Source: Anaerolineae bacterium (GTDB taxonomy: Bacteria; Chloroflexota; Anaerolineae; Aggregatilineales; Phototrophicaceae). Taken from it: 41,278 bases of DNA. Where the stretch lies: NCBI GenBank assembly GCA_023382675.1, contig JAHDWN010000050.1:1-41278 (forward strand). Direction: 5' to 3'. The notes below the pieces were generated by a model. That model searched no databases and was not told where the DNA came from. It worked only from the letters and a program-made list of their open reading frames with translations. Positions 23,941 through 26,349 of the stretch are shown one piece after another; position 1 is the stretch's first letter; every line of letters begins with the position of its first letter. A program made the translations under genes and the position numbers.

Positions 23941-24477
23941 CTAGCGCGAACGGATGGCGAAATCTTCGAAGGTGGTGGTAAAGCCATCGCCAGTCGGCGA
24001 ACAGCACATCATCCCGACCTGGACGGACGGCTGCATCAGGAGAGATGCCTGGCGCATCAGATGATACTGCCTGTCATCCAGGGAGTATTCCACCTCGATG
24101 GTCGTGCTGTGACGGCGCACCCGCAGCCAGAGTGACGGTGGATCTTGCGGCAGAGCAATCACTGACCAATCAGAAAAATCGCGCGTCATGACCACGCTGG
24201 CTTGTTGAACGCCATTGAGTAATTCGACGCCGCATTTCATCCAGTTTGCCTCATCGACACGCACCATTGCGCCCGCCTGGTCATAGAGTTCACTGTAAGC
24301 GCCGCTCACCTTGAGCTGTAGTTCAAAATCCCCTTCCACTTCCTGATAGTAAAAGTGGCCTGTGTCACGGATGCCACCATCATGCGTCTTGCGCCAGAAG
24401 TCAGTACGCGCACTGGTGGTCACGGTCAGTCGCCGATCATCTTGATGCCAGCTTGTAGGGGGATTGAGCCAATTCAT
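23941..24477 (-). CDS. DUF1349-family protein (concanavalin-like beta-sandwich)
   Basis: A 178-residue cytosolic protein without signal peptide. WLNPP, TDFWRKTHDGGIRDTGHFYY, VEGDFELQLKVSGAYSELYDQAGAMVRVDEANWMK (read in pieces) and GMMCCSPTGDGFTTTFEDF are standard DUF1349 signatures; the family has a jelly-roll fold related to concanavalin-type lectins and lies close to YeaB/regulators in yeasts and bacteria. No enzymatic role is established. Its ATG overlaps the FHA gene stop (ATGA), so the two proteins are made from one message. Confidence 0.88.
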   Translation of the reverse strand: MNWLNPPTSWHQDDRRLTVTTSARTDFWRKTHDGGIRDTGHFYYQEVEGDFELQLKVSGAYSELYDQAGAMVRVDEANWMKCGVELLNGVQQASVVMTRDFSDWSVIALPQDPPSLWLRVRRHSTTIEVEYSLDDRQYHLMRQASLLMQPSVQVGMMCCSPTGDGFTTTFEDFAIRSR

Positions 24478-25271
24478 GAGCGCGTCTCCGAGAAATAGAA
24501 GTGAACTATCATAACCAGGCGTCCCAGGCGCAGTTCATCGCCATGGCGCAGGACGCGCACCTCTTGTGGGTGGAGTCGAACGCCATTGATAAAGGTGCCA
24601 TTCGTCGTATCCATGTCCGTGATGCTGAGAGTCGATTGCTTGGCGTCATAGTGAACGGTCAGGTGCATCCGCGAAACGCCCAATTTTGCCGCATCCAGAG
24701 CAGTCAGATCGACATCCGGCGCGAATGACGCATCGCCACGGCCAATGACGAGGTCATGCTGATGGAGCTGTGGCCGGACTTTGAGCGAAATATTGGTGTT
24801 CGGATCGGTCAAAGACATCACAGACTCGGCGGTAAAGAAGGTGTCCCAGCCTGGCTCACGATCACCGAGATCGTGCGTGCCGGTCATAGCGCGCGCTTTA
24901 AGATCAACCTTGATCTGCTGCAGTATCTCTGGCGCAACCGGCAGTGTCTTCGATCCATCGCTGGGTTTCTGAGCGGCCGCTGTGTTCGGTTTCTTTTCGA
25001 TGTGTTTGATCTTCGGGCGGGTGTCGTCGTTGGCGCGCGCCTCGGCCCTGCGTGTTTCCCACTCTCGCACCTGGCGCACGAATTCGCCCTGTTCCGGAGT
25101 GGGTAGTGAAGCGATCTTCAAACGCAGGATTTCCAGAGCACGCTTGCTGTCATTGCCTTGTGTTCGCAGTCCAGCGTAGATTTCGATTAGTTCCTGCAAC
25201 GCGCTCAAGATAATTCCTTCTTTCATTCTATGATCTTCATTCTCGCTAAAGCGCGCCATGGCGTCAAGCAT
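24474..25271 (-). CDS. FHA-domain protein
   Basis: A cytosolic protein of up to 265 residues. The N-terminal 90 residues are predicted helical and charged, followed by a Pro/Lys/Ala linker. The C-terminal forkhead-associated domain (about 172-258) has the binding residues of the fold: VIGRGD, VSRMHLTV (S-x-x-H) and TTNGTFINGVRL, ending GDELRLGRLVMIV. It should read phosphothreonine, and the membrane kinase at 10113-12527 is one possible source; that link is inferred. Starts at 25271, 25259 or 25226 are possible; only the last has a passable ribosome-binding site (GAAG), so the true protein may be 250 residues. Confidence 0.88.
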   Translation of the reverse strand: MLDAMARFSENEDHRMKEGIILSALQELIEIYAGLRTQGNDSKRALEILRLKIASLPTPEQGEFVRQVREWETRRAEARANDDTRPKIKHIEKKPNTAAAQKPSDGSKTLPVAPEILQQIKVDLKARAMTGTHDLGDREPGWDTFFTAESVMSLTDPNTNISLKVRPQLHQHDLVIGRGDASFAPDVDLTALDAAKLGVSRMHLTVHYDAKQSTLSITDMDTTNGTFINGVRLHPQEVRVLRHGDELRLGRLVMIVHFYFSETRS

Positions 25272-25377
25272 GTCACTATGAAATGTATGAAGATCGTAGA
25301 ATTGACCGGGTGTGGCACGGTAGAAAGCGAGACGCTATACTGCTTGTGTCTATCGTGAGCCAATCGAGGAGATACCC

Positions 25378-25686
25378 ATGCAGATGTCATTGCTCGACGT
25401 CAGAATCGAATACTGCGCGGTTTGAAAGTACACCCCCCGCGTCGTCAGTTTGACGACTGAAATTCTCGGCCAGCGTACATTAGAAGTATTTGTCCGTTCC
25501 TGGACCTTGATCCCTGACAAAGGCGGCAAGTTCGAAGTCAGTGTCAATGGCGATCTCATCTTCTCCAAGAAGCAGCTTGGCCGCCATGCGGAACCGGGTG
25601 AGATACTGGCACTTTTCCGTCAGAAACTGTTCGAGATCTATCCCGATGCCGAGCGCATCATGGCAGCAGCAGAAGAAAGCGACTAA
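25378..25686 (+). CDS. SelW/Rdx-family thioredoxin-like selenoprotein (UGA read as selenocysteine)
   Basis: ATG 25378 follows a strong Shine-Dalgarno (GAGGAGA, then 5 bases). The frame reads MQMSLLDVRIEYCAV, then TGA at 25423-25425, then KYTPRVVSLTTEILG and on to a stop at 25684-25686, 102 codons in all. The rest matches the Rdx (SelW/SelT/SelH) fold: IEYC at the end of strand 1, helix PRVVSLTTEI, FEVSVNGDLIFSKKQLGR and HAEPGEI. Cys13-A-V-X16 sits exactly where the family has CxxC or CxxU, so the TGA is best read as selenocysteine. A perfect stem-loop starts 15 bases after it. Family members are thiol/selenol redox proteins. If UGA were a true stop, the downstream conserved 86 codons would have no normal start. 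The machinery genes selA/B/C/D are not in this window. Confidence 0.88.
25423..25457 (+). promoter_or_regulatory. Sec UGA codon with downstream SECIS-like hairpin
   Basis: The UGA (25423-25425) is followed after 15 bases by GTCGTC (25441-25446), loop AGTTT (25447-25451) and GACGAC (25452-25457): a perfect 6-bp stem with a 5-base loop. Bacterial SECIS elements lie inside the coding region just after the UGA and show a guanosine among the first two loop bases; here it is the second. The loop starts 21 bases after the UGA, within the usual range. Confidence 0.75.
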
Positions 25687-25722
25687 AGCGACAATCATCG
25701 CTTGATCCAGGTAGCAGCGCCC

Positions 25723-26349
25723 ATGTTGATGGCAGACAGCTTCTATCGTGTTTATCCCATGGTTTTTGTGCCTGACGATGCCGAAATCGACGATTTCGTC
25801 ATCCTGGGTAAACCGCCGCGCGGCGAGAAACCGGGCGCGCTGTCCCTGATTCTGGGCGCAAGCTGTATCATCCGTTCGCACACAGTCATTTATGCCGGTA
25901 ACAAGATCGGCACGGGCTTCCAGACCGGGCATCATGTCGTCATTCGCGAGTCGAATACTATCGGCGACAATGTGAGCATTGGCACACACAGCATCGTCGA
26001 GCACCACGTGACCATCGGCGACCGGGTGCGTCTTCACAGCCGGGTGTTCGTGCCGGAATTCTCCACGCTGGAAGAAGGCTGTTGGCTAGGCCCCGGCGTT
26101 ATGATCACCAATGCGCGCTATCCGATCAGTCGTGGCGTGAAAGATCGCCTGTACGGCGCGCATGTCGAAGCTGGCGCTATCATTGGCGCGAACGCGACGC
26201 TTCTGCCCGGTGTGCGTATCGGCGCTCGCGCCCTGGTTGGCGCAGGCGCAGTCGTTACCAAAGACGTACCACCGGGCAGTGTCGTCGCCGGCAACCCGGC
26301 CACCATCATCAATCAAGTCGATAACATCGAGTTCTACCAACCCGAATAG
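25723..26349 (+). CDS. Hexapeptide-repeat (left-handed beta-helix) acyltransferase
   Basis: A 208-residue protein from ATG 25723 (or 25729), 36 bases after the selenoprotein gene. Repeated [LIV]-G-x4 units form a left-handed beta-helix: ASCIIRSHTVIYAGNKIGTGFQTGHHVVIRE (in pieces), NTIGDNVSIGTHSIVEH, TIGDRVRLHS. The C-terminal IIGANATLLPGVRIGARALVGAGAVVTKDVPPGSVVAGNPA is the standard end of WlbB/PglD/NeuD-type N-acetyltransferases acting on nucleotide-amino sugars. The acceptor is unknown. No amino-sugar genes lie next to it, so its link with its neighbours is unclear. Confidence 0.88.
   Translation: MLMADSFYRVYPMVFVPDDAEIDDFVILGKPPRGEKPGALSLILGASCIIRSHTVIYAGNKIGTGFQTGHHVVIRESNTIGDNVSIGTHSIVEHHVTIGDRVRLHSRVFVPEFSTLEEGCWLGPGVMITNARYPISRGVKDRLYGAHVEAGAIIGANATLLPGVRIGARALVGAGAVVTKDVPPGSVVAGNPATIINQVDNIEFYQPE

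Follow-up and report, generated by a model that had tools for sequence, protein, structure and literature searches.

In the window, the whole stretch of 41,278 nt of Anaerolineae DNA that was analysed, a short selW-like reading frame runs from an ATG at 25378 to a TAA at 25684-25686 (Table 1). The only in-frame stop ahead of this TAA is a TGA at codon 16. Upstream of the ATG the frame is closed by a TAG at 25321, with no start codon in between. On the minus strand a gene with a C-terminal FHA domain diverges from selW, and a gene for a hexapeptide-repeat protein follows downstream. A sequence-only reading of this DNA had proposed that, on read-through, the frame encodes a full-length Rdx/SelW-type protein with the TGA at the second redox position, preceded by a ribosome-binding site and free of further stops. 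All of these points were recovered in our analysis. The 78-codon ORF from a TTG that the same reading expected from gene callers also exists, as the first in-frame start past the UGA is TTG 25450. Gene callers that treat UGA as a stop would probably miss selW or leave a fragment that lacks the active site.

Table 1. Features at and around the selW-like gene (positions in the window)
Feature	Position	Strand	Basis or remark
Predicted selW-like selenoprotein gene, 102 residues, UGA codon 16 as putative selenocysteine	25378..25686	+	sequence, profile matches
Shine-Dalgarno-like GAGGAG	25366..25371	+	6 nt upstream of ATG 25378
CxxU redox motif Cys13-Ala-Val-Sec16	25414..25425	+	TGA = 25423-25425
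Bacterial SECIS-type hairpin, 7 pairs, loop GUU	25441..25457	+	comparison of homologues
Divergent gene with C-terminal FHA domain (PF00498, 51.8 bits)	24474..25271	-	106 bp from selW
Hexapeptide-repeat protein gene, downstream of selW	25702..26349	+	context only

The read-through product matches Pfam Rdx (PF10262) with 59.7 bits (cut-off 22.6) and NCBIfam TIGR02174 (CXXU_selWTH) with 50.8 bits (cut-off 34.2); with 76 bits it stays below the cut-off of 88 of the equivalog NF041051 (SelTWH_Campy). It is the sole Rdx match of its genome (E 3.7e-13, one TGA inside), and its CxxU follows the first strand, the placement by which Rdx/SelW-like proteins are recognised. In an AlphaFold2 model built with 30 sequences (mean pLDDT 85.7), a strand spans residues 6-13 and a helix 19-30, with the CxxU ending the first strand and preceding the first helix. 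In Foldseek, the top 21 PDB matches were bacterial chains of 2fa8, 2obk, 2oka, 2p0g, 3dex and 2ojl; then came mouse SelW. Three of these SelW-related structures (2fa8, 3dex and 2p0g) resemble the product in both sequence and fold, the best structural match being 2fa8 (E 3.1e-7), yet the alignments show Cys in 2fa8 and 3dex where our product has Sec. Mouse SelW (2npb, E 4e-4, 22% identity) shares the Rdx-type fold, and its eukaryotic SECIS sits in the 3' UTR. The model thus points to a SelW-type thioredoxin-like fold. The product would be a small thioredoxin-fold thiol/selenol oxidoreductase acting via Cys13 and Sec16; selenium incorporation, redox activity, a partner and a cellular role are put forward here as predictions.

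The hairpin and the decoding machinery

Past the UGA, and within the coding sequence, positions 25441-25447 can pair with 25451-25457 around the apical loop GUU (25448-25450). The distance from the UGA is 15 nt to the stem and 22 nt to the loop, and the folding energy is -7.8 kcal/mol for the hairpin alone and -9.2 with flanking bases. Passages of a 2026 review (PMC13188914) give the rules for a bSECIS as a loop of 3-9 nt with G as its first or second base, a stem of 4-16 bp, a UGA-to-loop distance of 16-37 nt and an MFE of <= -7.5. The selW hairpin falls inside each of these limits (3-nt loop, G first, 7 bp, 22 nt, -7.8 kcal/mol). Measured against shuffled sequences, the 40-nt stretch past the UGA was more stable (z -2.28), and the stability of the 48-nt (z -0.29) and 50-nt (z -0.52) stretches was ordinary. 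Folding energy alone is therefore not decisive, and the hairpin rests on comparison.

For this comparison, 112 UGA loci were reduced to 102 sequences that differ from one another within the first 48 nt. All five core pairs were present in 91 of the 102, as against a mean of 20.2 and a maximum of 31 in 500 trials of synonymous resampling, which drew on codons outside the hairpin. On average, 4.83 of five core pairs formed in the true register and at most 3.14 in ten other in-frame registers. The loop G was invariant (102/102). Where its codon encodes Ser, it is AGT (73) or AGC (2) in all 75 sequences and never TCN; for Arg it is AGG in 20 of 25 and CGT in five, whereas AGG accounts for only 7 of 167 Arg codons elsewhere in the same genes; for Gly, GGT and GGC occur once each. 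In a gap-free alignment of 56 diverse sequences, 95.2% of hairpin cells pair (89.5 when shuffled) and 25 cells have changed on both sides (5.1 when shuffled), a count that 0 of 500 shuffles reached. When the partner was shifted by 1 to 3 columns, pairing fell to 50% or less. Eight Cys homologues retain 1 to 4 of the five core pairs. Codon choice dictated by the hairpin, together with its decay in Cys homologues, makes this a clean comparative case. Neither the hairpin nor the commonness of the gene had figured in the sequence-only reading.

That reading had also called for a search of the genome for selA, selB, selC and selD, and profile searches detected all four: selA on C11 (549.9 bits), selB on C6 (367.6 bits, positions 2-579 of 581), tRNA-Sec on C34 (72.4 bits, anticodon tca) and selD on C17 (35438-36373, L086; 370.1 bits, one TGA). 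Together with selW they occupy five different contigs. The UGA of selD lies within the motif CAG-U-ASK, and so the genome holds at least two UGA-containing genes. With this machinery, SelB and tRNA-Sec would insert selenocysteine at UGA codon 16 of selW, presumably directed by the hairpin, the apical-loop G of which lies 22 nt downstream of the UGA.

Among the 15 genomes of the genus, selB scored over the cut-off in nine, selA in eight and selD in nine, eight of the latter with one TGA. The SelD motif has U in seven of these eight (the motif of the eighth, G012, was not printed), and Cys takes this position in G006 (C448, L087), a genome without selB over the cut-off. tRNA-Sec was over the cut-off in 9/15 genomes and reached at least 58 bits in eight; G005 has selB, and its best tRNA-Sec match in the profile search of the genus was 47.9 bits. 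In G003, selW, selB, tRNA-Sec and selD were present, with no selA over the cut-off. Unlike in our genome, selW and tRNA-Sec share a contig in G003 (C174, L032) and G007 (C155, L033), 4.3 and 4.8 kb apart, respectively.

The UGA column and the spread of selW

Within the genus, selW is present in 5/15 genomes with one TGA in each. The nearest relative (81% identity) and three more (51-53%) carry this single TGA in the same column, so the in-frame TGA of our gene is not a matter of chance. In the taxonomic family, Rdx was detected in 68/98 genomes with 71 matches, 66 of them with one TGA and five stop-free (G338 twice, G264, G362 and G158). The class sample has Rdx in 179 of 396 genomes, the UGA form being present in 155 of the 396. 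At E<=1e-8, Rdx was found in 96 of the 201 genomes of a phylum sample, in both TGA and stop-free forms.

We fetched 123 class loci (L011 and L110 represent the same gene). They are made up of the top-scoring matches of the class, those of the family and a hand-picked set of others, and are thus not a random draw. At the second motif position, 113 of them have TGA, the sole TGA of the domain, and the remaining 10 have Cys (TGT/TGC in eight, plus L092 and L093). In the alignment that the sequence-only reading had proposed, the column accordingly holds UGA or Cys in all 123 loci, and the in-frame UGA aligns with the Cys of homologues, as is typical of a selenoprotein. A frame degenerating past the UGA, named there as a refuting sign, was not seen among the 113 UGA loci: none has a second TGA inside the domain, and the domain match continues in them. 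Tyr12 and Cys13 ahead of the UGA belong to the Rdx motif and are invariant across 30 aligned sequences. Two of the Cys-form frames, L092 (G338) and L093 (G264), are letter-for-letter identical, each being a long open frame that ends in the Rdx domain; G264 has selB, and G338 gave no selA or selB match.

Named genomes contained 332 stretches that encode relatives, of which 80 were kept. By their titles, 78 of these belong to Chloroflexi or groups taken as Chloroflexota; the other two, L233 and L236, carry the labels Actinobacteria and Gemmatimonadota, respectively. The best relative among the 80 was 'Anaerolineae bacterium isolate SJ143' (81% identity). U occupies the column in all 78 named loci that were read (the 80 without L240 and L242).

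The distribution of selW was compared with that of selB. In the genus, selW occurs in 5/9 genomes with selB over the cut-off and in 0/6 of the rest. It is dispensable, as it is missing from 10 of the 15 genomes, four of these with selB. At the class threshold for selB (E<=1e-75), 310 of the 396 genomes have selB: 165 have selB and Rdx, 14 Rdx only, 145 selB only and 72 neither. TGA status was legible for 159 of the 179 Rdx genomes, with that of family members supplied by the family search, and the other 20 were excluded from the count of form against selB; 19 of these 20 have selB, and one, G049, has the TGA according to the phylum sample. selB accompanies the UGA form in 146 of 155 genomes and is found in none of the four with stop-free copies only (G147, G158, G165 and G338), all of which have Cys in the column. 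Fisher's test gives p = 2.8e-5, a value that is too small because the genomes are related and the counts not independent. Seven of the nine UGA-form genomes without selB at E<=1e-75 have a selA match (that of G070 spans only half the model), and in eight of the nine the assembly is below 94% completeness or split into many contigs. G290 (7 contigs, 96% complete) carries UGA-form selW and selA with no selB at E<=1e-75; its selB may be divergent, broken or missed. Among the Cys-only genomes, selA was found in G147 and G165, in which a missed selB is therefore possible, and none was matched in G158 and G338.

A tree of 116 domains requires four changes between U and Cys. It is based on only 75 columns and is therefore rough, with 39 of its 113 inner branches left open and the bootstrap unsettled, and it leaves the direction of change undecided. 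The Cys copy of G158 falls within the clade of the own family, on a long branch beside the UGA copies of G428 and G429 (93/84), and no selA or selB match was obtained in this genome. This copy is likely a natural Sec-to-Cys replacement. In G338 and G362 the Cys copies make up a separate branch and thus look like paralogues.

Readings of the in-frame UGA

An Rdx pseudogene at an early stage of decay, hit by an ordinary nonsense mutation, or a base error in the assembly would likewise show a single in-frame stop. However, 113 of 123 loci, drawn from many assemblies, share the TGA at this column, the domain continues beyond it, and both the residues past the UGA and the hairpin are conserved. This conservation refutes the pseudogene or error reading, which we regard as highly improbable. 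Even less credit can be given to a genome-wide reassignment in which UGA is an ordinary sense codon, for example for Trp or Gly. It too would open the frame once the TGA is read as a residue, but among 26 long ORFs selected from the window six end with TGA, Cys fills the column in all 10 stop-free loci, and tRNA-Sec, SelA and SelB are present; the TGA stops, the Cys column and the Sec machinery refute it.

The UGA might instead serve mainly as a selenium-dependent switch, at which synthesis mostly ends with residue 15 and passage beyond the UGA is regulated. Its place at codon 16 would tie full-length synthesis to the selenium supply, although nothing in the data separates such a switch from ordinary Sec decoding, and the invariance of Tyr12 and Cys13 is that of parts of the Rdx motif. 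We consider a switch very improbable, if slightly less so than a decaying gene. The in-frame UGA of the selW-like gene is almost certainly read as selenocysteine, judging from the comparisons made here. We put at about 97% the probability that 25378-25686 is a functional gene for a selenoprotein of the SelW-like (Rdx, CxxU) family, with UGA codon 16 decoded as selenocysteine.

Known SelW-like proteins and the neighbourhood of selW

The SelW-like CxxU family is already established and abundant in bacteria. The parts of the GOS marine survey consulted report 427 sequences of SELENOW-like (PF10262, CxxU) selenoproteins and describe the family as generally the most abundant selenoprotein family in these samples (PMC2398784); passages of a review also list it with PF10262 and CxxU (PMC13188914). 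Our gene has in common with them the family, the CxxU with Sec in second place and the bacterial SECIS rules. By word counts, 'Chloroflexi' and 'Chloroflex' are absent from both papers, whereas here the gene was traced through Anaerolineae. For Campylobacter jejuni SelW (CJnc60), excerpts describe translation past the UGA backed by Ribo-seq and proteomics (PMC11955535). That protein, too, is a small SelW that had escaped annotation and has a Sec UGA, but with 80-81 residues it is shorter than the 102-residue product described here.

In the sections available of the respective papers, Sec-containing formate dehydrogenases and SelB were reported from single-cell genomes of Anaerolineales and other Chloroflexi (PMC4959059, PMC5736913). 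For Chloroflexi, a survey of 2006 gives three selenoproteins belonging to three families (PMC1794560). The portion of that survey on SelW-like proteins states that their Cys homologues are few or absent in bacteria that use Sec (PMC1794560), and our class data agree with this scarcity. An open-access literature search returned no paper recognisable as being on SelW in Anaerolineae. What is new here is the spread of selW in this class and the head-to-head FHA gene. With the UGA form in 155/396 class genomes, the selenoproteomes of the mostly uncultured Anaerolineae have probably been under-counted. One paper, in the part seen, notes as an oddity that Anaerolinea thermophila has SelB without a selenocysteine dehydrogenase (PMC4959059). 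selW is a candidate explanation for Anaerolineae with this combination.

A homologue of the FHA gene, divergent from selW, was found at 20 of 30 UGA-form loci of the own family (own locus counted; flanks of up to about 1.5 kb per side), although in four of the 20 the match is limited to the FHA part and lies farther from selW. None was found at 30 class loci outside this family (27 UGA and 3 Cys forms) or at the own-family Cys loci L092, L093 and L119. Divergent homologues also occur at 12 of the 80 named loci, a set that overlaps the own-family set. As read from these sequences, the arrangement of the FHA gene and selW appears as an association only. One could speculate that in this family SelW cooperates with the head-to-head FHA protein, a selenium redox switch and a phosphothreonine-binding signalling protein sharing a promoter region, but we consider this unlikely. 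Homologues of the hexapeptide-repeat protein and of an amidohydrolase, both encoded downstream of selW in the window, stand beside selW in the nearest relative (G009) only, among the loci searched.
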